Source: Comamonadaceae bacterium
Lineage (GTDB): Bacteria; Pseudomonadota; Gammaproteobacteria; Burkholderiales; Burkholderiaceae_C
Direction of reading: 5' to 3'
Assembly (NCBI GenBank): GCA_947375135.1
Contig: CANCER010000002.1
Location: 62,001 to 126,000, forward strand
Length of the DNA stretch: 64,000 nt
Both the position numbers and the translations under genes were made by a program. Positions 32,051 to 63,814 of this stretch are shown here, piece by piece. The notes under the pieces were generated by a model. That model did not search any database. It saw only the letters and a list, made by a program, of their open reading frames with translations, and was not told where the DNA came from. The first letter of the stretch is position 1; every line of letters starts with the position of its first letter.

Positions 32051-32908
32051 TCACCTGGCTTTGCGTAAGAAAAATACAGCACCACATCCATCCCGTCTGT
32101 CAGTCTCCATTTCAAGCAAGCCTTGAAATATTTTTCGGTATGCTTTCGAAAAGCTCGTATTTTTGCTTAAATAAGAATATATTTTTGAGCCGAACTCCGG
32201 ACCGGCAGCCTCTTTTAAATGCCAAACGCTATCCATCATTAACCACGCTATTCCGTTATTTTTTGGCAATATGGGATAGTGCTCTATAACTGAGAGGCCC
32301 GCGTAGGAAAACCTCGTGATCCATTCATCTACCGAAAGTGGATTTGAAAGATGATGATAAGTCAGGAAATCACGCTGTAAGGTCTCGGCAATGGCAACAT
32401 TGCCGGTAGATGCCACAGCTTTCGGCAGAAGAGACCAGTCAATAAATCTGTTCGTAACAACACTGCATAAAAGTGATCCACCAGGTTTCAGGCAGCGGAA
32501 TATTTCTGCGATCACTAGATCAAGATCATCCATGTGCTCCAACGAACAATTAGCAAACACATGATCAAAACTTGAATCCTGTTCCGGGACTTTATGCGCA
32601 GGCCCCACATGTACGCTACGGTACACCCCGGATTTTCGGCTAAGCTCAGCAACCGATAAATCATGATCCACACCGACAACATTATTCAAATTCGGCCATA
32701 AGAGACGAAAGTATTTTCCATCTCCACATCCCAAATCGAGCACTTTCCCTTTGAGGCGATAATTTTGATAAGCCGCATACTCCCAAGCTCTCCAGTGACT
32801 CAATGGGGGTATGTTTGCATAAATAGCAGTAACTGCGTCATATCCTTTTAATATCTGGCGGTTAGATAATTCTATTGTCTTCAATCTGAAAATCTCACTT
32901 TTGATCAA
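32051..32908 (-). CDS. class I SAM methyltransferase
   Basis: A 285-residue protein with GKVLDLGCGDGKYFRLLWP (SAM loop), FANCSLEHMDDLDLVIAEIF and LKPGGSLLCSVVTNR. The longest frame begins with TTG, overlapping the ABC ATPase stop region by 14 bp; an in-frame TTG eight codons later, preceded by a GTGAG-like site, is an alternative. It lies between the exporter ATPase and a second methyltransferase. Target unknown. Confidence 0.8.
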   Translation of the reverse strand: MIKSEIFRLKTIELSNRQILKGYDAVTAIYANIPPLSHWRAWEYAAYQNYRLKGKVLDLGCGDGKYFRLLWPNLNNVVGVDHDLSVAELSRKSGVYRSVHVGPAHKVPEQDSSFDHVFANCSLEHMDDLDLVIAEIFRCLKPGGSLLCSVVTNRFIDWSLLPKAVASTGNVAIAETLQRDFLTYHHLSNPLSVDEWITRFSYAGLSVIEHYPILPKNNGIAWLMMDSVWHLKEAAGPEFGSKIYSYLSKNTSFSKAYRKIFQGLLEMETDRRDGCGAVFFLRKAR

Positions 32909-34322
32909 TTCTAAAATCGAAACTACCTGGGAGGTCAGCTATTCCATGGTGCGTCAAAGCAGGTCCATTCGTTACCTTCCTCCAACCCACAGAAATCACA
33001 CCTGCTGCTGGCAGATGGCACAACCGGGTAATCCTTGAAAAAAACTCCTCATGCCCCATTTTTGACACATTCATATAACTTTCGGCGTCGATCGTTGCAA
33101 GGCCGATCTCATAGGAGTATTCGCCTATTTCTAACTTTAATTCCACACATTGACGACACTGAATACGGGTTCCAGCGGACAATTTACCAGGCGCCATTCC
33201 AAAATATTCCAGCGATCCTTTTCCATGAACATTGATTCCTCTCTCATTTTGTAAAACCAATCCGGCTAGTGGCACTCCGATCGGGTGAGACAGTGTAAAT
33301 TCGTAATAAAAAACTGCAGTTTCACCTTGAGAAAAACTGTTGCAAGGCACGCCTTCCGAATCACATACAACGTAACCGGTGCAAGTTCCCCATCCATTTG
33401 AAACCTCGGAGGCAGTGTGTACCCTCCTAAAGCATTCTATAGCCGGCCATTGTTCGGGATTAATTGATGCCGATTTAACACTATCTTCAGTGTCATTGAT
33501 AGTATCAAATACAGCTTTGGATCTGTTATTCTGCTCCTGCAAATAATAATGCTTAGTTGCTTGTATAGCAGGGCCTAGATACATTTGATGCCCATTTTTC
33601 AGCAATAAGGCATTTTTACAAAACTGTTCTACCTCCGTCATAGCATGCGTAACAAGCAGTATGGCTGCACCCGATTGTCTGAGCTGCTCCAGTCGTGCAT
33701 AACATTTTTGGCGAAAAAAGATATCGCCAACTGCAAGCGCCTCGTCAATGATTACTATAGATGCATCAATATGCGCCTGGACCGCAAAAGCAAGTCGTAC
33801 ATACATTCCACTTGAATAGGTCTTTACCGGCTGATTAATAAATTCACCGATATCTGCGAACTCGATGATTTGCTGGTATTTGGTGTCAATTTCATATTTC
33901 GTCAGACCTAGGATGCGACCATTCAGATAGACATTCTCCTTCCCTGTGAAGTCAGGATTAAATCCGCTACCAAGTTCAAGCAGAGCTGCTACCCTTCCCT
34001 TGATCACGACTTCTCCACTGGTAGGTGTCAATGTTCCGGCTATTATTTGTAAAAGTGTGCTTTTGCCGCTTCCGTTGCGACCGATAATGCCCATCGTTTC
34101 ACCACGACGAAGCTGAAAGGATATGTTATGAAGCGCCCTAAACTCACGATAGTATGGAGAAGATGCTTTTACGCCAGTCAGTCCAAGTGATGTAACAAAC
34201 CGGTTGAGCAGACTGTAAAATGGAGGAACCACCATTTGTTTAAGACGATCGGGAGGTTTATCATAGATTTCGTAGCGTTTACTAAGATTTCTCACATCAA
34301 TAAGAATGTCTTCAGATGACAT
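32895..34322 (-). CDS. wzt: second polysaccharide ABC exporter ATPase with C-terminal glycan domain
   Basis: Start at MSSEDILIDVRNLSKRYEIY (475 residues); the open frame upstream overlaps the permease. ABC core: Walker A IIGRNGSGKSTLLQ, signature YSSGMYVRLAFA, Walker B IVIIDEALAVGDIFF. The C-terminal ~200 residues form the Wzt-type sandwich (YVVCDSEGVPCNSFSQGETA, GLVLQNERGINVHG). It overlaps the permease gene by 11 bp. The C-domain differs clearly from that of the ATPase at 13.2-14.6 kb, so the two exporters probably recognise different glycan ends. Confidence 0.93.
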   Translation of the reverse strand: MSSEDILIDVRNLSKRYEIYDKPPDRLKQMVVPPFYSLLNRFVTSLGLTGVKASSPYYREFRALHNISFQLRRGETMGIIGRNGSGKSTLLQIIAGTLTPTSGEVVIKGRVAALLELGSGFNPDFTGKENVYLNGRILGLTKYEIDTKYQQIIEFADIGEFINQPVKTYSSGMYVRLAFAVQAHIDASIVIIDEALAVGDIFFRQKCYARLEQLRQSGAAILLVTHAMTEVEQFCKNALLLKNGHQMYLGPAIQATKHYYLQEQNNRSKAVFDTINDTEDSVKSASINPEQWPAIECFRRVHTASEVSNGWGTCTGYVVCDSEGVPCNSFSQGETAVFYYEFTLSHPIGVPLAGLVLQNERGINVHGKGSLEYFGMAPGKLSAGTRIQCRQCVELKLEIGEYSYEIGLATIDAESYMNVSKMGHEEFFSRITRLCHLPAAGVISVGWRKVTNGPALTHHGIADLPGSFDFRIDQK

Positions 34323-35145
34323 CTGAAAATCCCTTACGTGTCTTCTGAAACCACCAGAAGCCAGCCTGAGATAAAAATATACCCACGAAGAAGCTGATAC
34401 CCCACTGCTTCCAATCAATAGGCTTGCCCCACAACATCAATTCGCGCAATTGGATTACCGGTAAGGTGATAGGGTTCCAGATCAGAAGCGCACGATAGCT
34501 TTCCGGTAATACGTCTAGCGGATAGAAAATGGGAGCTAGAAAAATTGCTACGCTTGATACCATTGCTATCATCTGAGATAAGTCCCTCAGGTACACCCCC
34601 AGGGATGCGAATATCCACGAAAAACCGAGCATCATAAATATCAATGGCAGTATGACTACTGGAATCAAGAGAGATCCCATATGGACTTCTGTGCCGGTTA
34701 TCAAGCAGAAAAAAAGCAATACTGCAAAGCTGACTAAAAAATTCAGGAAGGCAGATAATAAGGCCATCCAGATCAGTGCTTCGAGTGGAAATACAACCTT
34801 CTTCACGTAACTCGCATGCGCTGTGATCAAACCTGGCGCCCGGTTGAGACACTCTGCAAAGAAGCTATGCACAATCATTCCGGAGAATAGAACAATGGCG
34901 AAGGTGACTTTGCTTTCTTCACCTGTTCCCCATCGTGCCTTGAAGGCTACGCTGAAAACCATCGTATAGATAGCGAGTATCAATAAAGGATTGAGCAGAG
35001 ACCACAATACTCCCAACATGGAGCCTTTGTATCGGCCAAAAAAATCACGACGCACCAAGTCTTTTATAAGACCCCAGTTCTTATAGATACTTGCTATGGA
35101 CTGCATAGTATTCAAGTATATTGACTTGATCACGTTCGCCTGCAT
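34312..35145 (-). CDS. wzm: second polysaccharide ABC exporter permease
   Basis: A 277-residue ABC-2-type permease with about six TM helices: LVRRDFFGRYKGSMLGVLWS, then NPLLILAIYTMVFSVAF, the conserved HASYVKKVVFPLEALIW and GVYLRDLSQMIAMV. It is the first gene of the second ABC module, with its promoter in the region after 35145. Works with the overlapping ATPase to export a lipid-linked glycan. Confidence 0.93.
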   Translation of the reverse strand: MQANVIKSIYLNTMQSIASIYKNWGLIKDLVRRDFFGRYKGSMLGVLWSLLNPLLILAIYTMVFSVAFKARWGTGEESKVTFAIVLFSGMIVHSFFAECLNRAPGLITAHASYVKKVVFPLEALIWMALLSAFLNFLVSFAVLLFFCLITGTEVHMGSLLIPVVILPLIFMMLGFSWIFASLGVYLRDLSQMIAMVSSVAIFLAPIFYPLDVLPESYRALLIWNPITLPVIQLRELMLWGKPIDWKQWGISFFVGIFLSQAGFWWFQKTRKGFSDVI

Positions 35146-35776
35146 ACACTTGTAAATTGCTCAGTGTTCTTATGCGACTGATTTCTTGAAAATGAATTTT
35201 TCGTAGCGCAGGCTGCGCTGGGTAAAGGATGGGACAGTGACATCTGTAATTGAGCCGCTTGAGGTCACTTTTTGAGTGTTTTGTAATTGTAGACTACGCT
35301 CCAATTTTAGAAATTTAAATTTATGTCTGTGGCTGGGGTCGCCCCGTCGCACCACATTCGGCGCTTTGAGGCGCATTATGGGAGCCTCGCAAGTGAAGGA
35401 CTGTCGCCGCTTGGCGCCCGTGCAACGTGCAACGTGTTTTCGGGTTGGGCCGCTCGGCGCGGCGATTGGTCCGCGGTCTCCGTGTCATCTTTCTGTCGGT
35501 GCCAAAGGGGGATTCTTGTCTCTCTTCAAATGCCATATGCTGATCACGTCGCCTGTCCGCGCAAGTGAAACCAAGCCGGAATGGCGCTGAAATGCGCCCG
35601 TGCCCGCTCGTGTTGCAGCAGGCAGGTTTGCTACGACTGCTAAGATTGACCCGGAGACGGGACCCACAGGTGCGCCTTACTGCCCACCGAAATCGACTCT
35701 CTTTTCCCATCCAAGCCTTGCGCAGAAGGAGGCCTGGTTCCACAGGTTCATCTGCTCCATACCAGGGACTAAGCGC
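35146..35776. other. divergent intergenic region
   Basis: About 630 bp between the minus-strand ABC module and the plus-strand GT-C/UbiA operon, so it should hold both promoters. The left part is AT-rich and contains a perfect small hairpin (AGCGCA-GGC-TGCGCT, 35205-35219). The right part is GC-rich with open frames on both strands that show no family resemblance. An AAGGAGG sequence at 35725-35731 is not followed by a usable start codon. No JUMPstart/ops element was recognised. Confidence 0.4.
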
Positions 35777-38700
35777 GTGACTTTCTTTATCTCCTTGCTG
35801 CTGCTTGGCTGGTCTTCTCTTCGCGTCAGCACCCGATTCGGCAGTTCATCGTCCGATCGGTTTTGGATAGGCATAGCGAGCGTGATGCTACAAATCGGCT
35901 CGACCGCGAGCCTCACCTCTTTGGTCCATCAAATGAACGCGGGCGCCTGGTTGCTCGTTCAAGTATCCACTTGTGCGGTGGTCCTGTTGTGCACAAGGCC
36001 GGTACACCATCCGGGTGATGGCGCACTCTCATTGCGCTGGAGCCTGCGGCGCTCGCGGCTGCTTTCGTTTACTGCCGCGCTCTCTCCCTGGGGACTGATG
36101 GCACTCATGGCCATTGGCGCGATGCTCGCCCTTTCGTTGACGGTTCAGGCGACAACTCCGATCTACGCCGGCGATGACAAGATGTACCACGCCTCGCGCG
36201 TGATCTATTGGATTCAGCACCAGACCGTATTTCCATTCGACACACACAACGTCCGGCAGACGATCACACCTTTTGGAAGCGAGTTGTTTTTCTTGTGGCC
36301 GGTGCTCCTGACAAAAGTCGAGGTTGTGGGTCGTCTGGTCTTTTGGCTGGCCTATCCATTGGCGGCGACAGGCCAATATCTTTTGTTGCGCAGTATGCGG
36401 CTGAGCCGCACGATTTCCTTGGTTGGGGTATTGATTCTGATTTCAACGCCGCTCGTAGCCACAAGCGCTATCGGGCTCAAGCCAGAACTTTGGTCGGTTG
36501 TATCCTTGATTGGTGTCGCCTATTGTCTTGTTTCCATCTGCCTCACGCCGAACACAACGAAGACACATTATTTCCTCCTGGGCATATTCGCGGTAATAAG
36601 CGTCAATATTCGCGCTTTTCCGGTTGCAATGCTTCCCAGCCTGGTAGTGACTATGTGGTGGACCCACAGTACTTTTTCATTTGCCACGCGGCTAAAAATC
36701 CTTGCGTCCGGAATGCTGTGTGCAGGCCTTATGAGTTCGCTGCTCATTCCCCTCGTTTTTAATTCTGCACGCTATCACCACCCGCTGGGCCCAACGGAAG
36801 TTCGGCACCAGGTTGCAGCCGATTTCACGCCCAGGGTGATTTATACCCACGCCGTTCGTTTTGCATTTTTGTTAATGGAGTTGCCAGACGTTCCAACTGC
36901 CGTAGAGACAAGAAATATCCTCAGCACCACAGGCAACCAATTGATTACGGATATTGGGGCGAATGTTCCCTTGACTTGGGAAAATGACAGCCCGTGGCCT
37001 GGAAGATTCACATACGCCCTACCGGAGCACGCAAAGAGGTTCTCGCTGGCAGGGCTTTTGTGGATTCCCATACTGTGCCTTGCGACTTTGCTGTTTATAC
37101 GCAATGTTGTTGCAACATGGCCACGTGTGAAGTTGACGGCTGTTTCAGCCCAAACCCTCATGGCAATTCCTTTGTTGGCTGCAGTCCTTTTCGGTGCCAG
37201 ATGGATCGTCCATTCAGAGGTGCCAGCACGTTTCCTCGTTGGCCCCTATTCACTGTGGCTGAGTATTGCGGTCGCCATCTGTGGACCTTACTTCTCCTCA
37301 CGCAAATTTGCGCACGCACTGGCTGCAATCATCATTTCGTATTCGGTTTACCAGCCCATCAGCACCCAGGCGTTCAGTGCCATACAGGCACTCGCCGCGC
37401 CCATAACGATAAATGCAATTAATCAGCCTTTCGAACAAGCTCTTGATTTGATGCCGCTTGGCTCACGGATTCTTTTTGTAGGAAACCAGGACGCGCCCGA
37501 CTATCCTCTCTTTTCACCCGGTACTCGCTATTCGAATGCGGTGATTCCTTGGGGCTTGGCGCCTTTTGATGCGGCAAGAATGCGGCACTTAATCGAATCG
37601 GAAAAAGCAACCCATATCTTGATTCAGGACATTGAGCGTGAGTCAGTCAGTTGGCTTCCCCCTCTCAATATCGGAGACATGCTTGTTTGGCTGGCTCAGG
37701 AACCCGGACTAAAGGAAGTTCCACTCAGCACGCCGTACATGCGACTTTTTGAAACCACCAATCCCATGAAAATGGACGACCGTTCTTTTCAATTAGTGCA
37801 AGTGCCAGCCCAGACACCCCTGGTTACCGTTGGCAAAACTCTATGGACCCAGGTAGGCATCCACCCCGCGACTCTGAAGACTCCCTGGCCGGTCGAGAGT
37901 CTGGGCACCGTCAAAAGTGGTTTCCTGTGGATGGGTCAGGGACCCGCAGAGGGTCTTGAAGTGGGTCTGTGGTCGCGCCAAGACCGCGCTGTGGATGTGC
38001 GAGTGGATGTTTCTCCCGGCCCCAGCCTGACCACGCAGGGGCGCAGAATCATGCTGCTGCACGACGGACTGGCGGCCGGTGACGTACAGACCTTCAAGGG
38101 CGATGCGTCAATTGTGTTCCCCGTCACGCTGCATGCCGGACACAATGTGCTGAACTTCTTAGCACTGGATGCCGCGACGGTTAAACGCATGCCAAATGGC
38201 GATGAACGGCACTTGGTGATCGGTCTTCACTCGGTTCGGATCGACGCCTCGCCAAAAAGGGCTGATGCTCCGCCAGCGCTGCCGGAAAAGGCGAATGCCC
38301 AGGCGCAACTCACGAGTAACGACGACTTCGGCCAGAGTGCAAAAACGGCGATAGACCGGATCAACCGCCATCAACAGCTCGAGGGTTACTGGCTCACCAC
38401 TTACACGAGGGAAGAACGCTTTGAGCGTCCCAAGCTGGAAATGAATACGTTTGTGACATCCATGATGGTGGACCTGCTAAGCGCCGCGGTGATCCCGACT
38501 GATTTGGGGGCCAACATGGAGCGGGCGCGGGCGCATCTGGGCAGCCAGATCGAAGCCGACGGACTGGTTCGCTACCATGGTCGCCCTGACGCCGCAGCAA
38601 TGCGGACGCTGGGGCTTTGCCCCATCACACCGGACACAGACGACACGGCCTTGGTGTGGCGAATCGCGCCTGGTGCAAACGCATTGCGAGCATCCGCTCT

Positions 38701-39346
38701 TGCGCAGCTCATGGACTACCGCACGCCGGAGGGCCTTTATAAAACATGGCTCGGGCAATCCAATGCGTACCAATGCATCAATCCTGGCGCGGACCCGAAT
38801 CCTGCCGATGTCGGCATACAGATGCATATGCTCATGCTACTGGCACAAACCGACCCGGCTGCCGCGCGCACGCTCTGTGGTGCGCTCCGCCAGGCAATCG
38901 ACCAGGACCGGCTCTGGGTGTACTACCGCCGGGCGCCATTGGTTCCGCTCCTGCGCCAGGCCGACCTGAAAGCGGCCGGCTGCACGGTTCAACTGCCGCC
39001 TTCGCGCATTCACACAGACATTCCTGATCAGCTTAGCTGGGTGACCGCGACCCAGATACTGCAACGCATGGACCACAGCAGCGGACAGCTACCCACCACC
39101 GCTGAAGTTCGGGAGGTGCTTCAAGCGCTGTCCAAAGAGGACTTCGCGCCGCTACGCCTGAACCCGCCCATGCTTTATCACAACGATCTCAGCGCTTCGG
39201 TGCGCAGGTTCTATTGGTCGGAGGACATTGGGTATGCGATTTGGTTGCGCCTGTATTCCGAAAGTGTGCGCCGTGGACTGCTGCTCACCAGCTACGGAAG
39301 CGAAAAGGGGGCGACCGGCGGTTCCAGCAAGCCCAAGCCCCAATGA
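35777..39346 (+). CDS. GT-C-like membrane protein fused to alpha-toroid domain with DXDD motif
   Basis: I choose the GTG preceded by CCAGGGA (1189 residues, starting VTFFISLLLLGW); the frame is open back to a GTG at 35600. Three parts are visible. (a) Residues ~1-560: many TM helices with the loop motif GDDKMYHASRVIYW (132-145) and THNVRQTITPFGSELFF, as in uncharacterised GT-C transferases that use polyprenyl-phosphate sugars. (b) ~690-830: a beta-sandwich-like stretch. (c) ~850-1175: a soluble helical domain with QQLEGYW (QW-like) and PDTDDTALVW, i.e. the class II terpene cyclase/squalene-hopene cyclase DXDD motif at 953-956. It overlaps the UbiA gene by ATGA. Function unknown; each domain call rests on motifs. 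Confidence 0.7.
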   Translation: MTFFISLLLLGWSSLRVSTRFGSSSSDRFWIGIASVMLQIGSTASLTSLVHQMNAGAWLLVQVSTCAVVLLCTRPVHHPGDGALSLRWSLRRSRLLSFTAALSPWGLMALMAIGAMLALSLTVQATTPIYAGDDKMYHASRVIYWIQHQTVFPFDTHNVRQTITPFGSELFFLWPVLLTKVEVVGRLVFWLAYPLAATGQYLLLRSMRLSRTISLVGVLILISTPLVATSAIGLKPELWSVVSLIGVAYCLVSICLTPNTTKTHYFLLGIFAVISVNIRAFPVAMLPSLVVTMWWTHSTFSFATRLKILASGMLCAGLMSSLLIPLVFNSARYHHPLGPTEVRHQVAADFTPRVIYTHAVRFAFLLMELPDVPTAVETRNILSTTGNQLITDIGANVPLTWENDSPWPGRFTYALPEHAKRFSLAGLLWIPILCLATLLFIRNVVATWPRVKLTAVSAQTLMAIPLLAAVLFGARWIVHSEVPARFLVGPYSLWLSIAVAICGPYFSSRKFAHALAAIIISYSVYQPISTQAFSAIQALAAPITINAINQPFEQALDLMPLGSRILFVGNQDAPDYPLFSPGTRYSNAVIPWGLAPFDAARMRHLIESEKATHILIQDIERESVSWLPPLNIGDMLVWLAQEPGLKEVPLSTPYMRLFETTNPMKMDDRSFQLVQVPAQTPLVTVGKTLWTQVGIHPATLKTPWPVESLGTVKSGFLWMGQGPAEGLEVGLWSRQDRAVDVRVDVSPGPSLTTQGRRIMLLHDGLAAGDVQTFKGDASIVFPVTLHAGHNVLNFLALDAATVKRMPNGDERHLVIGLHSVRIDASPKRADAPPALPEKANAQAQLTSNDDFGQSAKTAIDRINRHQQLEGYWLTTYTREERFERPKLEMNTFVTSMMVDLLSAAVIPTDLGANMERARAHLGSQIEADGLVRYHGRPDAAAMRTLGLCPITPDTDDTALVWRIAPGANALRASALAQLMDYRTPEGLYKTWLGQSNAYQCINPGADPNPADVGIQMHMLMLLAQTDPAAARTLCGALRQAIDQDRLWVYYRRAPLVPLLRQADLKAAGCTVQLPPSRIHTDIPDQLSWVTATQILQRMDHSSGQLPTTAEVREVLQALSKEDFAPLRLNPPMLYHNDLSASVRRFYWSEDIGYAIWLRLYSESVRRGLLLTSYGSEKGATGGSSKPKPQ

Positions 39347-40230
39347 TCGAACCACCAAAAGGGGGCAAATTCTTCATGCGACTGTTATCGACCATTCGTT
39401 TGGAAGAGGTTCTGGTACTGCAGGGTGCGCCCCTTTTTGGCGCCCTCTTTTCGCTGGGAACATTCAACCGCCATAGCGCCGTGGCCCTCCTGCTGCTGGC
39501 AGTAGGAAGTAGTTTGCTCGTCGCTCACGTCTTCCTGGTCAACGATTGGTCTGGAATCAACCACGACCTACGGGACCCGTCGCGGTCAGCTGGCGTGTTC
39601 CTAAATCGTGGCGTACGCCGCGCCGAGGTAGGTGCTTTGTCCTTGGTTCTGCTGGTGCTCAGCATGGTACTGTTCAGCCAATTGGGCGGAGTCACTCTGA
39701 GTATCGGGCTGATGATGGCGATGGCCAGTGCGCTGTATTCCGTTCCTGGCATCCATTTCAAGGGGGTGCCGGTGCTCAACTCCGCACTTCACCTGCTCAG
39801 CGGCTTGCTTCACTTTTTGCTTGGTTATTCGGTGTTCCACGCCCTCGACGGAAGGTCACTGGAAATCGGCTGTTTCTTCGCCGCCATATTCAGCGCGGGA
39901 CACCTCACCCACGAGGTTCGCGACTACGGGGCGGATTTGCGAAACGGCATCAGGACCAATGCCGTGCAGTTCGGCAAGGTGAGGAGTTTTCTCGCTGGAT
40001 TTGCGCTATTCACGTTGGCCGATGGCTTGCTCCTGCTGCTGGCGATCAGGGGAACCGTGCCCTACAGCCTCGTGCTTGTTGCCGCGCTTTACCCCCTGCA
40101 TTGCTACTGGGCGCTGGGGACGCTGCGCAGTGGGCTCACGTTTGACAGTGTGCGCCAGCATCAATTGCACTATCGCGGACTGTACGCGTGCATTGGCGTG
40201 ATCATGGTGGTTTCTTTGCTGTTAACATAA
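39343..40230 (+). CDS. UbiA-family prenyltransferase
   Basis: An integral membrane protein, 295 residues from the ATG that overlaps the preceding stop (ATGA); the in-frame ATG at 39376 (MRLLSTIRLEE) is the alternative. Aspartate-rich motif 1 reads NDWSGINHD (67-75), so the central Asp of NDxxDxxxD is Gly. Motif 2 is DYGAD followed by LRNGIRTN (194-206). About eight TM helices. UbiA enzymes move prenyl groups onto aromatic rings, glycerol phosphate or phosphoribose. The tight link to the GT-C/DXDD gene suggests a shared isoprenoid substrate (inference). No quinone or haem genes are nearby. Confidence 0.8.
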   Translation: MIEPPKGGKFFMRLLSTIRLEEVLVLQGAPLFGALFSLGTFNRHSAVALLLLAVGSSLLVAHVFLVNDWSGINHDLRDPSRSAGVFLNRGVRRAEVGALSLVLLVLSMVLFSQLGGVTLSIGLMMAMASALYSVPGIHFKGVPVLNSALHLLSGLLHFLLGYSVFHALDGRSLEIGCFFAAIFSAGHLTHEVRDYGADLRNGIRTNAVQFGKVRSFLAGFALFTLADGLLLLLAIRGTVPYSLVLVAALYPLHCYWALGTLRSGLTFDSVRQHQLHYRGLYACIGVIMVVSLLLT

Positions 40231-40320: not shown

Positions 40321-41358
40321 TCAAGCGTTCTCGCTTAAACAGCCAACCTTCAAACCGGCTGGTTTCTGCTCTGCAGCATCGCCCACAAAGAGGCGCTTTC
40401 GGAAGTCCGCGACGGTTAGCCTCAGTCCCTCTTCCAGTGCAACGACCGGCGCCCAGCCGAGCGCCTTCTGTGCAAGGCTGATATCCGGCATGCGCTGACG
40501 GGGATCGTCTTGGGGTAATGGCTTGCTGACGACACAGGATGTCGAATCGCACTCTGCGATGATCCGGGCGGCCAGCTCCAGCATGCTGCATTCCTGCGGG
40601 TTACCAAGGTTCACAGGGCCGTTAAATCCGTCGTCGCTGTGCATTAACCGCATCAAACCTTCCACGGTGTCATCCACATAGCAAAATGCGCGTGTCTGGC
40701 TTCCATCGCCATACAGCGTAAGCGGCTCAGCACGCAGCGCCTGAAGCACGAAGTTAGAGACTACGCGACCATCGTCAAATTGCATCCGCGGGCCGTAGGT
40801 ATTGAATATGCGTGCCACCTTGATCCGCAGGCCGTACTGGCGGAAGTAGTCAAAACACAATGTTTCCGCGCACCGCTTTCCCTCGTCATAGCACGCTCTC
40901 GGGCCAATGGGATTCACATTACCCCAATATGCTTCTCGCTGCGGATGCTGGATCGGATCACCGTACACCTCGCTTGTTGAAGCCTGCAAGACCCTGGCTT
41001 GCAACCGCATGGCCAGGTCCAGCGCATTCATGATCCCCAGCACATTGGTACGCATGGTTTGGACTGCGTCACGCTGGTAATGAACAGGTGATGCAGGGCA
41101 AGCTAAATTGAATATGAAGTCCACTTCCGCATGAAATGGCGCAGTGACGTCGCCGTACATCAATACAAACCGTGGATGATCCAACAGGTGAGCAATGTTG
41201 GATGAACTACTGGTGCAAAAATTATCGAAACAAATGACATGGAAACCATCGCGCAGCAAGCGTTCACACAAATGTCCGCCAATAAATCCTGCCCCCCCAG
41301 TAACCAGAATACGAGTTCCCATCTTATTATCCCGGTTGGCAGGCGTAACACCACTCAT
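40321..41358 (-). CDS. UDP-glucuronate decarboxylase-like (UDP-xylose synthase) enzyme
   Basis: An extended SDR, 345 residues, matching [62 protein letters not shown] (YxxxK) and [17 protein letters not shown] oxidises and decarboxylates UDP-GlcA to UDP-xylose. The ATG overlapping the upstream GT2 stop (ATGA) is chosen; MGTRILV at 41322 is possible. It ends about 90 bp from the UbiA gene, tail to tail; a GGCGCC inverted pair in that gap (near 40274-40292) may form a hairpin but lacks a T-run. No Ugd-type UDP-glucose dehydrogenase is seen in the window. Confidence 0.9.
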
Positions 41359-42044
41359 CTGAAAATATTATATTTAGCAATGCAGTATAAAGCACGCATT
41401 CCATCTCTCCAGCCAATTTTCTTGCCTTCTTCATAGGTCCTACCAAAATAAGAAATTCCGACCTCGTAGATACGGCAACCGGTTTTCGCAATCTTGGCTG
41501 TAATCTCCGGTTCAAATCCAAATCGATTTTCTTCAATGCGGATGGACTGAATTATTTCCCGCCTGAATACCTTGTAACCACACTCCATGTCGGTTAGATT
41601 CAGATTCGTAAGCATATTGGAGAACAGGGTAAGAAAGCCGTTAGCAACTCGATGCCAAAAATACATCACGCGATGTGGGTTCGCACCGGCAAAGCGTGAC
41701 CCGAAAACCACGTCAGCCTTATTCTCCAATATCGGCTTAATCAAGGCTGGATAGTCCTGTGGATCATATTCAAGATCCGCATCCTGAATAATAACTAAGT
41801 CGCCAGTTGCCAGTTGGATACCCGATCGGATGGCAGCGCCCTTGCCCTGATTGCAATCATGAAAAACAAGTTTATCAATCCTTCCCGCAACTTGCTTTAA
41901 AAGTAACTCCCTTGTCCCATCATTTGAAAAATCATCTATAACTATGACCTCCTTAGTAAAATCCGGAACTGCACAGACTGCATCGATAATTGCGCATATT
42001 GTTGTTTTTTCATTAAAACAGGGAATTATAATAGTCAACTTCAT
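41355..42044 (-). CDS. glycosyltransferase family 2 (dolichol-phosphate-mannose-synthase-like)
   Basis: A 229-residue GT-A enzyme resembling DPM1: [68 protein letters not shown] (metal site) and the [11 protein letters not shown] region. DPM-like enzymes make polyprenyl-phosphate sugars, the donors used by GT-C transferases. It is therefore a plausible supplier for the GT-C-like protein 2 kb away, though on the opposite strand. No C-terminal TM helices are present. Confidence 0.88.
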
Positions 42045-51251: not shown

Positions 51252-52739
51252 TTATACCGAGCCCAATTTGGATTCGAGCAGTCTTCCAAGTGCGTGATTA
51301 CGCCTAAGAACTATAGCCGCCAATAAGCAACTGATGACGCCTCCGATGAAAACCGTCAACATGTTATGAAGCAGATCTCCGCCAGGAATCGGATAATAAA
51401 TTGATACCCATGTGCACAGGCCCATTATCAGAAATCCAAAAATGTATCGAGGCACATCGACTGATACAAAAATAATTCTCTGCATAAAAAAAATCATGGT
51501 GCAAACGGTCATCGCCCCTGCCACTACAAGTGAAATTGCCAGCGCAGTAATACTATGAAAATACCAATTCGAAAGCCATGCGCCAATCAGCACGACAACT
51601 GCACCCAATGCATAAGGCGGTATCAAACCACGCGTTCGGCGAATTGCACGGGCAGAATTTGACCACAAGTTAGTTGTGCAACGTGCGTATTCAATCAATG
51701 CACCAAATATTACATACCTTGTTGCAATATGGTAACGGGAGTCAGTTAGTATTTCAAGCAGTGCTGCGGAACAAACAGCATTGAACCCAGCCCAAATGGC
51801 ATATATCGGTGCAAGTACATTCATCAAGTCAGAGAGTGCCACACTTATTTGCATATCTGACTTTGCATCAGAAATACACCGAGAAAAATAAGGATAAAGA
51901 AACTGCATGGCGAGAGACTCAACAATTGCAGCCAATTGGCTTGTTATTCCAAGACCAACTGCAATATACCCGAGCTCTTTTGCCCCCCATATACTATCGA
52001 TCCAAAATTTGTACCCCGTATATTGAAGCCACATGAAGCCTGTTGCTGCGGCCAAAGGTACACAAAAGGCAAGAAATGTCGATCTACTCAAAAAATCAGA
52101 AAGGGGGAGATTTTTATTTGCATCAGCGATCATATTAGCTCCACGAGCAAGTGCACGCTTTGCGAAATATGCACCGACTGCAGCACCAAACGCCTGGCCT
52201 AATATCCAGTAAATTGCACCTTTATTAAAAAAAGTGAGTGCAACTGAAGTACCTAGACTAAGCAAGACCGTCAAGATTGCAAAAAATGCACTTTGAATAC
52301 GATACCCGAGCACATTCAGTAGGGTTACGTACATCATATTGGACGTAGCCACGTAAACGATGCTGGCAACGATCAAGCCAGCAGCCAGTCGCTTTGCAAT
52401 CGATGCATCACCCATAGAGTCAAATTCTATTGCCCATCCGAAAACCACAAGGAAAATAAAAAATGACACATAAAGAACATATTTCTCAAATTTCTTCATG
52501 TACGCCAATAGCTGACCGCCATCCCACCATGCGTGAGCATGCCTAAATACATGTTGATCAAGAGGATTAATTAAAAACAAACCACAAAAGGTTTGAAAGC
52601 CAATAAGCAAGACCCATTGCCCATAATCCAATGGCGCAAGTAGCGCAGTCATAATTCGTACACTGATTATTGCAATTAACGCCGTCAGTACACGACTCAC
52701 CATAACGACAAAAAAATCTCGACCCAAGAAAGCACTCAT
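51252..52739 (-). CDS. Wzx-type oligosaccharide flippase
   Basis: A 495-residue membrane protein with about 12-14 TM helices and the polysaccharide-transporter N-terminal pattern (FFVVMVSRVLTALIAIISVR, then IMTALLAPLDYGQWVLLIGF). It likely turns lipid-linked repeat units across the inner membrane. It is the only flippase in the window; no Wzy-like polymerase accompanies it. It sits 4 bp before the fucosyltransferase gene. Confidence 0.85.
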   Translation of the reverse strand: MSAFLGRDFFVVMVSRVLTALIAIISVRIMTALLAPLDYGQWVLLIGFQTFCGLFLINPLDQHVFRHAHAWWDGGQLLAYMKKFEKYVLYVSFFIFLVVFGWAIEFDSMGDASIAKRLAAGLIVASIVYVATSNMMYVTLLNVLGYRIQSAFFAILTVLLSLGTSVALTFFNKGAIYWILGQAFGAAVGAYFAKRALARGANMIADANKNLPLSDFLSRSTFLAFCVPLAAATGFMWLQYTGYKFWIDSIWGAKELGYIAVGLGITSQLAAIVESLAMQFLYPYFSRCISDAKSDMQISVALSDLMNVLAPIYAIWAGFNAVCSAALLEILTDSRYHIATRYVIFGALIEYARCTTNLWSNSARAIRRTRGLIPPYALGAVVVLIGAWLSNWYFHSITALAISLVVAGAMTVCTMIFFMQRIIFVSVDVPRYIFGFLIMGLCTWVSIYYPIPGGDLLHNMLTVFIGGVISCLLAAIVLRRNHALGRLLESKLGSV

Positions 52740-62170: not shown

Positions 62171-63814
62171 ATGGTTGTGGCCCCTGAATTACTGTCCAGT
62201 TTGAACGCAAAGCAACTGCGCGAACTTGCCCATGATTTGATCGCACAAATCGCCAATCGCGACCAGGCCATCATTGCGCGTGACCTACACATCGACGAAC
62301 GCAATCTGCACATCAGTGCGCTGGACCAACAAATCACCAGCCTAGATCAGACCATCACAGCCAAGGACCGCGAGATCCTGTACCGCCAAGCCAAGATCGA
62401 CCAGCTCACGCATGAGATGGCCGTGCTCAAACGCTGGAAGTTTGGCCGCAGCCGCGAACAACTCGATGCTGGCCAGGTTAGTCTGCTCGATGAGACCATT
62501 GATGCCGACATCGCCGCTATTGAGCAAGAGCTCCAGGACCTGGCCGCACCAACCACCCCAGCCAAAGAACTCCGCCAGCAGCCCAAACGCGCAGCCTTGC
62601 CGCTAGACCTGCCCCGCGTTGAGCTGCACCACGAACCCGACAGCACCACCTGCACCTGCGGCTGCCAATTGAAGCGCATCGGCGAAGACGTCAGCGAGAA
62701 GCTGGACTACACACCGGGCGTGCTCACGGTGCAGCGCCATGTCCGTGGCAAGTGGGCGTGTTCCGCGTGCAAGACCTTGACGCAAGCGCCGGTGCCCGCG
62801 CAGATCATCGACAAGGGCCTGCCCACGTCGGGCTTGCTGGCACAGGTGCTGGTGGCCAAGTATTCTGACCATCTGCCGCTGTACCGCCAGGAGGCCATCT
62901 TTGGGCGCTCCGGCTACGAAATAGCCCGCTCAACCTTGGGTGCCTGGGTGGGCGTGTGTGGAGTGCAGTTGCAGCCCCTGGTCAATGCGTTGAAGACGGC
63001 CATGTTCCGCTCAGCAGTGCTACATGCCGATGAGACCCCGGTGGCCATGCTCAAGCCGGGCAACAAGAAGACGCACCGAGCCTACCTCTGGGCTTATGCA
63101 CCGGGAGCCTTCGAAGATTTAAAGTGCGTGATTTACGACTTCTGCGAATCCCGCGCCGGTGAGCATGCCAGAACATTCCTGGGAGACTGGAGCGGTGGCT
63201 TGGTTTGTGACGACTTCAGTGGCTACAAAGCCAGTTTCGGTGCAGCCATCACCGAGGTGGGCTGCATGGCGCACGCCCGACGCAAGTTCTTTGACCTGCA
63301 TGTCAGCAACAAGAGCGAGATTGCCCAGCAGGCACTGGTCTACATCGGGCAGTTGTATGAGGTCGAGCGGGAAGCAAAAAACCTCAGCGTCGATGAGCGC
63401 AGCCGCATGCGCCGGGACAAATCAAAACGGCTGGTCGATGCCTTGCACCAGTGGATGCTGTTGCAGCGCCAACGCGTCACGCACGGCACGGCCACCGCCC
63501 GCGCGCTGGACTACAGCTTAAAACGTTGGATTGCACTGACTCGGTTTGTGGAAGATGGGCGCTTGCCCATCGACAACAACTGGATCGAGAACCAGATTCG
63601 ACCAATTGCCATTGGCCGAGGCAACTGGTTGTTCGCGGGCTCACTGCGCGCGGGTCAACGGGCGGCCGCCGTGATGAGCCTGATCCAAAGCGCCAAGCTC
63701 AACGGGCACGACCCGTATGCCTACCTGAAGGATGTGCTGGCACGCTTGCCGACTCAGAAGAACAGCCGCATTGACGAACTGCTGCCCCACAACTGGACTC
63801 CTCTGAGCACGTAA
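62171..63814 (+). CDS. tnpC: IS66 transposase TnpC
   Basis: A 547-residue DDE transposase. An N-terminal leucine-rich coiled coil (LRELAHDLIAQIANRDQAII) precedes a zinc-finger-like CTCGC ... CSAC region. The catalytic core has VLHADETPVAML, LVCDDFSGYKASF and DNNWIENQIRPIAIGRGNW with the glutamate. Length is normal and no break is seen, so the element may be active. Confidence 0.96.
   Translation: MVVAPELLSSLNAKQLRELAHDLIAQIANRDQAIIARDLHIDERNLHISALDQQITSLDQTITAKDREILYRQAKIDQLTHEMAVLKRWKFGRSREQLDAGQVSLLDETIDADIAAIEQELQDLAAPTTPAKELRQQPKRAALPLDLPRVELHHEPDSTTCTCGCQLKRIGEDVSEKLDYTPGVLTVQRHVRGKWACSACKTLTQAPVPAQIIDKGLPTSGLLAQVLVAKYSDHLPLYRQEAIFGRSGYEIARSTLGAWVGVCGVQLQPLVNALKTAMFRSAVLHADETPVAMLKPGNKKTHRAYLWAYAPGAFEDLKCVIYDFCESRAGEHARTFLGDWSGGLVCDDFSGYKASFGAAITEVGCMAHARRKFFDLHVSNKSEIAQQALVYIGQLYEVEREAKNLSVDERSRMRRDKSKRLVDALHQWMLLQRQRVTHGTATARALDYSLKRWIALTRFVEDGRLPIDNNWIENQIRPIAIGRGNWLFAGSLRAGQRAAAVMSLIQSAKLNGHDPYAYLKDVLARLPTQKNSRIDELLPHNWTPLST

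Follow-up and report, generated by a model that had tools for sequence, protein, structure and literature searches.

A toroid-like domain with a DXDD motif and its conserved UbiA-superfamily partner: a possible link between isoprenoid handling and lipid-linked pentose transfer

In the 64,000-nucleotide stretch of Comamonadaceae DNA analyzed here (the window), a toroid-like C-terminal domain with a DXDD acid motif is coupled by an ATGA overlap to a UbiA-superfamily protein. Domain and UbiA stood together in 8/8 loci found, and that the DXDD motif, a QW-like motif and the pairing are all kept is more than chance. We tentatively favor, somewhat short of an even chance, an extracytoplasmic toroid-like domain that forms with UbiA a core handling an isoprenoid chain, coupled to the transfer of a lipid-linked pentose, perhaps xylose.

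The gene pair and its recurrence

The first gene encodes a fusion protein. Its frame is open until 39346 on the + strand; candidate starts are a GTG at 35777 and, for the longest form, a GTG at 35600, and an AAGGAGG sequence lies near 35728, far from 35777. Positions 35777..38308 (+) hold an N-terminal membrane part, GT-C-like by hydropathy, and a soluble stretch that may be a beta-sandwich. The toroid-like domain follows at 38309..39346 (+), as seen in an eight-sequence alignment and with an HMM of QW units, and carries HQQLEGYW, PDTDDTAL and four invariant Cys. The UbiA gene (39343..40230, +) begins with an ATG that overlaps the stop of the fusion gene as ATGA. The two-gene unit described in the first-pass annotation is thus real, GDDKMYH, PDTDDTA and EGYW are all present in the fusion protein, and the pair indeed runs opposite to the flanking glycan genes, which form − strand blocks. 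These belong to a locus of the O-antigen type that includes Wzm/Wzt-like ABC genes; glycan genes also lie near locus L019. PDxDDTA occurs a single time in the 20,189 aa of non-overlapping ORFs of the whole window.

The eight loci comprise the window, one alphaproteobacterial MAG (locus L005) and six genomes of one family, labeled f230, of the same class as the window. Eight is a lower bound, because the searches scored limited first-look candidates and sampled larger groups, and one genome scan used six peptide patterns only. In 8/8 loci, domain and UbiA genes share the ATGA overlap with the UbiA ATG in frame, and the expectation that relatives would always lie beside UbiA held throughout. Domain and UbiA of the window and of the MAG are 42-48% identical to their f230 counterparts. 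The whole fusion protein, searched against 61 genomes, of which 36 were further members of the genus, matched the window's own genome alone. Neither plasmids, searched with the domain, nor viral contigs gave a relative. One further hit, G392 (E 7.7e-4, 81 positions), looked by eye like a fortuitous match: it covers a signal peptide and a solute-binding-protein-like stretch and lacks the motifs. The gene set is rare, and it lies in and near surface-sugar loci. Titles and abstract openings in the literature yielded no work in which a DXDD/toroid domain is fused to a GT-C protein or, within a glycan locus, stands together with UbiA.

Cyclase-type motifs in the C-terminal domain

The domain spans about 320 residues. 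All eight sequences of the alignment contain PD[TSA]DDTAL, so the DXDD motif is conserved among relatives as anticipated, and each carries one QW-like repeat, Q-x3-G-x-W. For comparison, PDxDDT was present in 11 of 12 fetched proteins strongly matching the squalene-hopene cyclase family, only 2 of these 11 having A as the next residue, and the fetched frames (n=12) showed 4-7 QW repeats by pattern. An HMM built from 73 QW units of 11 squalene-hopene cyclase-type proteins scored the N-terminal QW of the eight domains at E 3.9e-6 to 0.15. The best control reached 0.059 in 800 shuffles and 0.035 in 728 other frames; six of the eight domains beat every control, and those of the window and of locus L021 fell within the best controls. 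In hhalign comparisons of domain and cyclases, the QW repeat was found first with a score of 33, while 30 column shuffles reached no more than 22.4; the probability was only 11%.

Pfam, NCBIfam and PDB (limit E 10) returned unrelated chance rows for the domain, none better than E 0.04, and together with hhalign they gave no significant homology to a known class II terpene cyclase. An HMM of the cyclase DXDD segment, a nine-residue match, did not separate the window (E 0.6) from its best row, a shuffle at 0.27. AlphaFold models of the domain from a two-sequence input (window and MAG) had pLDDT values of 35.5 and 35.2, too low to assign a fold or to confirm the earlier 'alpha-toroid' label. The single domain of about 320 aa, set against the larger squalene-hopene cyclase form (frames of 656-703 aa), also weighs against a cyclase. 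Homology to class II cyclases is hence suggestive only, and cyclase catalysis is plausible, if unproven. The domain is conserved across the eight loci, corresponds to no model in Pfam or NCBIfam as searched here and was found solely with a divergent UbiA.

Each domain contains exactly four cysteines, invariant in 8/8, a feature absent from the first-pass annotation. In the MAG, the domain protein has one N-terminal hydrophobic segment. Both features would fit an oxidizing, extracytoplasmic site, and the domain is probably extracytoplasmic.

Among the other invariant positions of the alignment, ten are acidic and sixteen aromatic, and the conserved Trp/Tyr and acids would be equally suited to a domain that binds or cuts glycans. 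The domain might then have an alpha/alpha-barrel fold and edit a glycan as a glycoside hydrolase, lyase or epimerase, with the DXDD residues as catalytic acids. The four cysteines, the glycan locus of the window and the glycan genes near L019 would agree with such an enzyme; however, the QW-like repeat and PDxDDTA are cyclase-type, and no Pfam glycoside hydrolase or lyase model matched. We consider glycan editing improbable.

Membrane partners and neighboring genes

The Pfam score places the partner protein in the UbiA superfamily (PF01040, 60.5 bits versus a cut-off of 34.2; E 2e-16), and the nine hydrophobic segments correspond to the expected nine-helix size. The best NCBIfam row, PRK12875 at E 5.6e-12, is far under its cut-off. 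The nearest solved structures, 4tq3 (E 5e-6) and 6m31 (E 1.2e-4), presumably use prenyl diphosphates. Motif 2 reads RD[YW]xxD in 8/8 loci (RDYGAD in the window) and retains the canonical DxxxD. Motif 1 reads NDWxGxxxD in 8/8 (NDWSGINHD in the window); Gly here replaces one Asp of the canonical NDxxDxxxD, a single residue of a variable motif. N67, D68 and D75 of motif 1 and D194 and D198 of motif 2 are invariant. The genome encodes three other UbiA proteins; two of them show a canonical motif 1, and the third was not recovered by the motif search. As the Gly is found in 8/8 loci, the activity of this UbiA may be altered.

The first-pass annotation had offered a DPPR-synthase-like role as an alternative. 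The window UbiA did not match NF008978, which we take to be the decaprenyl-phosphate phosphoribosyltransferase model, at E<=0.001; another UbiA protein of the genome did at 1.1e-4, below the cut-off, and among 14 control genomes the model matched in 8 and exceeded its cut-off in 1. The Gly occupies the D251 position of DPPRS/PPPRS in 8/8 loci, as placed by motif position relative to PMC11127046. According to that paper, D251A abolished activity in vitro and lowered it severely in vivo. The missing model match and the loss of this important Asp weaken the DPPR-synthase alternative.

Up to residue ~504, the N-terminal membrane part of the window protein shows about 11 hydrophobic segments, and across window and relatives hydropathy gives 8-11; GT-C enzymes have 7-13 TM helices and an acidic first periplasmic loop. 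By eye, candidate acidic loops are GDDKMYH in the window protein and, in all six f230 proteins, GAGD. The earlier 'GT-C' label was not confirmed: the N-terminal 844 aa gave no Pfam row at E<=1, hydropathy is the sole source of the label, and the best PDB row was unrelated (E 1.6). Among the six f230 membrane parts, the best Pfam row was DUF2272 at E 0.13 in one; neither Pfam nor PDB placed window or f230 proteins in GT-C by family model or solved relative. Similarity between the window and the six f230 N-terminal parts was undetectable (best hhalign probability 0.2%), and in the MAG the membrane part is a separate gene. From this it follows that the module is the toroid-like domain plus UbiA, with an exchangeable GT-C-like partner. 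This exchangeability was not part of the first-pass annotation.

Two further genes adjoin the pair in 7/8 loci, neighbors likewise new relative to the first-pass annotation; the 16.9-kb L005 locus has neither. In the window, an SDR (40321..41358, −) has UDP-glucuronate decarboxylase (UDP-xylose synthase) as nearest solved relative, UXS1 being closest (PDB 4gll/2b69, E 3e-112 and 5.7e-112; next structural class E 1.2e-38). Beside it lies a GT2 protein of the polyprenyl-phosphate, DPMS/ArnC-like type (41355..42044, −; PDB 5mlz, E 4.3e-17), whose NCBIfam rows are AglJ/PpgS/ArnC-type models, all under cut-off. By tblastn, SDR and GT2 are 64-66% and 60-65% identical, respectively, in the six f230 loci.

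These neighbors might also serve to glycosylate side chains of a surface polysaccharide in the periplasm. The domain would then be a non-catalytic or glycan-acting GT-C accessory, comparable to the CBM of the GT136 ORF12, and UbiA would make or modify a lipid-linked pentose donor as in three-component pentofuranose systems. The O-antigen-type locus of the window with its ABC genes, the extra soluble domains of the membrane protein and the adjoining SDR and GT2 would all agree, and PMC11127046 describes a UbiA-type synthase, a flippase, an SDR epimerase and a CBM-bearing GT-C protein. However, the missing NF008978 match and the Gly at the D251 position in 8/8, given the impaired D251A variant (PMC11127046), speak against it, as do the lack of a phosphoribose phosphatase among the recurrent genes and the domain itself, which goes with UbiA and shows stronger conservation than the GT-C-like part. 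We regard side-chain glycosylation as a real possibility, albeit a doubtful one.

Alternatively, UbiA could be a flippase or scaffold. GT2 would make a polyprenyl-phosphate pentose, UbiA would move it, the GT-C-like protein would use it and the toroid-like domain would receive the lipid in the periplasm. Among the recurrent genes, GT2 is of the donor-synthase type and a GT-C-like protein is present, with no dedicated flippase; the motif-1 Asp is lost in 8/8, and UbiA overlaps the gene of a probably periplasmic domain. Yet the invariant motif residues look catalytic, and we know of no UbiA protein that flips lipids. A flippase role has, in our estimate, only a small chance of being right.

Proposed function and comparison with known systems

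For the isoprenoid-handling core that we favor, the following sequence may be envisaged. The SDR, given its close similarity to UDP-xylose synthases, would supply UDP-xylose, and GT2 would load the pentose onto polyprenyl phosphate. UbiA, as a member of its family, would move a prenyl group or join an isoprenoid to a small acceptor within the membrane. The periplasmic domain might take over this isoprenoid and protonate or cyclize it via its conserved DXDD motif, and either the product or a surface glycan could then receive the sugar from the attached or neighboring GT-C-like protein. Domain and UbiA remain 42-48% identical to f230 while the membrane part is dissimilar, hence these two likely share chemistry. 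GT-C-like protein, DXDD domain and UbiA may all serve one isoprenoid lipid, and there are hints that a ring-modified isoprenoid is built on a surface sugar or intended for one. The most far-reaching form is rather unlikely: a periplasmic class II cyclase, with UbiA as its translationally coupled partner and interchangeable lipid-dependent glycosyltransferases fused to it, would make a cyclized-isoprenoid pentose glycolipid or a terpenoid glycan cap. To our knowledge, a terpene-ring step outside the cytoplasm has no precedent. If true, the system would join terpene cyclization with extracytoplasmic lipid-linked glycosylation, chemistries so far treated apart, and bacteria could remodel an isoprenoid at the outer face of the inner membrane. 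Were the domain non-catalytic, it would still be conserved and without a model, and its association with a divergent UbiA, with a GT-C-like partner that can be exchanged and with a probable pathway to a pentose donor would remain. The system is directly testable in a cultured relative.

Three-component pentofuranose glycosylation combines PPPRS, a MATE flippase and GT136 (PMC11127046). The present loci resemble the systems described there in a UbiA-superfamily protein, a GT-C-like protein with extra domains, an SDR and, in the window, an O-antigen-type locus. In contrast, the UbiA described here is unmatched by the phosphoribosyltransferase model and lacks its Asp, GT2 and a UDP-xylose-synthase-like SDR recur instead of a phosphatase or flippase, and a toroid-like domain is present.

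With squalene-hopene-type class II cyclases, the domain shares PDxDDT and Q-x3-G-x-W, the QW lying ahead of DXDD. It differs in its size of ~320 aa, one recognizable QW, four invariant Cys and a probably extracytoplasmic location, in its fusion to a GT-C-like or HEAT partner and in the lack of a significant profile match. Like periplasmic glycosylation of the GtrB/ArnC type (Ara4N, O-antigen glucosylation), the loci combine a polyprenyl-phosphate GT2, a GT-C-like protein and a nucleotide-sugar SDR; as far as we know, those systems have neither the UbiA nor the DXDD domain present here. Meroterpenoid pathways, e.g., fungal and cyanobacterial ones, pair UbiA with a class II cyclase. As in these pathways, a UbiA prenyltransferase in the present loci is paired with a protein bearing DXDD. 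That protein probably has a periplasmic orientation here and is associated with glycosyltransferase-like proteins, and an aromatic-acceptor gene was not seen among the recurrent genes.

A conserved domain paired with UbiA

Gene 1 is an open frame on the + strand that may start with GTG at 35777 (1,189 aa) or with an upstream GTG at 35600 and ends at 39346, its last part (38309..39346, +) encoding the toroid-like domain. The whole protein found no match in Pfam (E<=0.1), NCBIfam (E<=1) or among PDB chains (E<=1). Gene 2 (+, ATG 39343 to 40230) encodes a UbiA-family protein, as the first-pass annotation had proposed, with a PF01040 score of 60.5 bits against the Pfam cut-off of 34.2. It is one of four PF01040 places in this genome (4.22 Mb, 89.9% complete). 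Another UbiA gene of the genome, L003 (G000:C1:28741-29469), carries the motif NDWFDRHVDAINEP, which we take to resemble (bacterio)chlorophyll synthase; judged by this motif, the organism may be phototrophic.

The occurrence of the set is rare and patchy. Scanning the whole gene 1 protein with six patterns against the genome_contigs collection (84,980 species) gave a sole relative, L005, in an alphaproteobacterial MAG. Within the genus of the window, where 36 further genomes were searched, the whole protein had no match. Profile searches with the domain hit 2/399 genomes in the window's order (its own and G392, the latter rejected as a chance row), 2/369 in the class and 2/249 in the phylum (each time its own and G798). 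In the family of G798 there were 6/147 hits and in its genus 5/8; the class (1/337) and order (1/96) of L005's genome returned L005 itself. We thus count at least eight distinct loci, a lower bound: the window, L005 and six of one family (f230) in the window's class.

UbiA directly follows the domain gene in 8/8 loci, with an in-frame ATG and a stop sharing ATGA; the overlap noted earlier in the window, at 39343, recurs in every locus found. An alignment of the eight domains spans about 320 residues, with 42-48% identity across lineages and 72-84% inside f230. H-Q-x3-G-x-W and P-D-x-D-D-T-A-L are invariant in all of them, so the predicted conservation of DXDD holds, as are ten acidic and sixteen aromatic positions. 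Four cysteine columns are likewise fully occupied, and the aligned domain has no further cysteine. This fixed even number suggests two disulfides and, in turn, an extracytoplasmic location, from which we infer the sidedness. In agreement with this, only one hydrophobic segment, at the N-terminus, precedes the HEAT repeats and the domain in the L005 chain.

The membrane partner is exchangeable. The window protein and its six f230 relatives carry, ahead of the domain, a part that crosses the membrane repeatedly (8-11 hydrophobic segments); window and f230 parts show no similarity to each other (hhalign best probability 0.2%; blastp pieces only, E 4.8 or worse). In L005, where the domain sits on HEAT repeats, the gene after UbiA, which likewise overlaps it by 4 bases, codes for a membrane protein of its own (548 aa). 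None of the membrane parts matches Pfam or PDB significantly, and the label GT-C-like therefore rests on hydropathy, an acidic first loop and context. Chemistry common to the loci should reside in the domain and UbiA and not in the GT-C-like part.

Possible activities of the domain and UbiA

Several observations speak for a class II terpene cyclase. PDxDDT is common to the domains and 11/12 frames strongly matching SQHop_cyclase_C, two of these 11 also having the following A. With an HMM built from 73 QW units of 11 cyclase frames (one partial frame excluded), the N-terminal QW of six domains had better E-values than any of the 800 shuffles or 728 other frames; the L021 (f230) and window domains were each outscored by one shuffle and one frame. 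In hhalign against cyclases, QW was found first, scoring above 30/30 column shuffles, and three of four weaker hits also lay on QW repeats. However, the QW hit probability was only 11%, a shuffle was the top row for the HMM of the squalene-hopene cyclase DXDD segment, the domain had no significant match in Pfam, NCBIfam or PDB, and only one domain is present. Two AlphaFold runs with the window and L005 rows gave largely helical, unusable models (pLDDT 35.5 and 35.2). SQHop_cyclase_C matches at E<=0.001 occur in 17/114 genomes of the window's class and not in the window's own genome. Cyclisation by the domain is plausible; a periplasmic cyclase, the bolder form of the isoprenoid-handling reading given below, we consider rather unlikely. 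A domain that cuts glycan, with the invariant acidic and aromatic positions on one side and the QW and PDxDDT motifs on the other, appears improbable.

The UbiA proteins have a canonical second motif, RD[YW]xxD, and in 8/8 a first motif NDW[AS]GxxxD with Gly in place of an Asp. By profile, the closest solved relatives are 4tq3 and the digeranylgeranylglyceryl phosphate synthase 6m31. The window UbiA has no match at E<=0.001 to NF008978, presumably the decaprenyl-phosphate phosphoribosyltransferase model, which rings in 8/14 control genomes and exceeds its cut-off in one. The characterised polyprenyl-phosphate phosphoribosyltransferase requires the equivalent Asp (D251) for activity in vitro, and without this residue its activity in vivo drops severely (PMC11127046). 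Given both the absent match and the Gly, the alternative that UbiA works as in the DPPR pathway is not supported. UbiA may have a changed substrate and may transfer prenyl groups; a flippase role, for which the altered motif 1 speaks and against which the canonical motif 2 speaks, seems improbable.

Neighbouring glycan genes

An SDR gene (40321..41358, -; 64-66% identity by tblastn) and a GT2 gene (41355..42044, -; 60-65%) adjoin the pair in the six f230 loci and, with the window, in 7/8; L005 has neither within 16.9 kb (tblastn, E<=1e-3). In the PDB, the SDR is closest to UDP-glucuronate decarboxylase/UDP-xylose synthase (E 3e-112; next class 1.2e-38), and the sugar is thus perhaps xylose. 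GT2 most resembles dolichyl-phosphate mannose synthase and ArnC-type enzymes. In the window, the SDR and GT2 genes (40321-42044) share 4 bases (41355-41358) and are convergent with the toroid-UbiA pair, whereas in the six f230 loci the SDR gene is transcribed away from the domain gene and the GT2 gene comes after UbiA in the same orientation. The four genes have hence been rearranged yet kept together.

Around the window copy, ABC transporter genes (one with a Wzt_C domain), glycosyltransferases and SDRs mark the region as O-antigen-type. A Wzm/Wzt-like exporter with Wzt_C occupies 32895-35145, the surrounding locus being of the ABC-dependent O-antigen type; the glycan block also contains a 495-aa frame (51252-52739) lacking Pfam and, at E<=1e-5, NCBIfam matches, and an IS66 transposase gene lies at the window edge (62171-63814). 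For f230, nine flanking frames, uncertain at this high GC, were scanned in four loci (L021 and L022 left out). They include two glycan genes in L019 (one for a GDP-mannose dehydratase, the other a GT-containing frame) and one epimerase-family protein in L018; the rest were Kelch/Ig-like, beta-lactamase-family or without match. Upstream of the L005 domain gene (L005:1707-7117) lie asparagine-synthase-like, sugar-transfer ATP-grasp, PqqD, HPr-kinase-like (sub-threshold) and sulfotransferase frames, a set that to us recalls lasso-type RiPP or exopolysaccharide loci.

With these neighbours, the set might be a periplasmic glycan side-chain system with the domain as accessory, a somewhat doubtful reading beside the core kept in 8/8 loci and the exchanged membrane partner. 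We tentatively prefer, as a possibility, that domain and UbiA form an isoprenoid-handling module coupled to lipid-linked pentose transfer.

Our literature search, judged by titles and abstract openings, found no DXDD/toroid domain fused to GT-C or paired with UbiA in a glycan locus. Among published systems, the three-component pentofuranose pathway (PMC11127046) comes closest. Compared with that pathway, the set has another UbiA type, no phosphatase or flippase among its recurrent genes, and an extra domain. It would belong to a known kind, lipid-linked extracytoplasmic glycosylation, to which a terpene step would possibly be a new addition.
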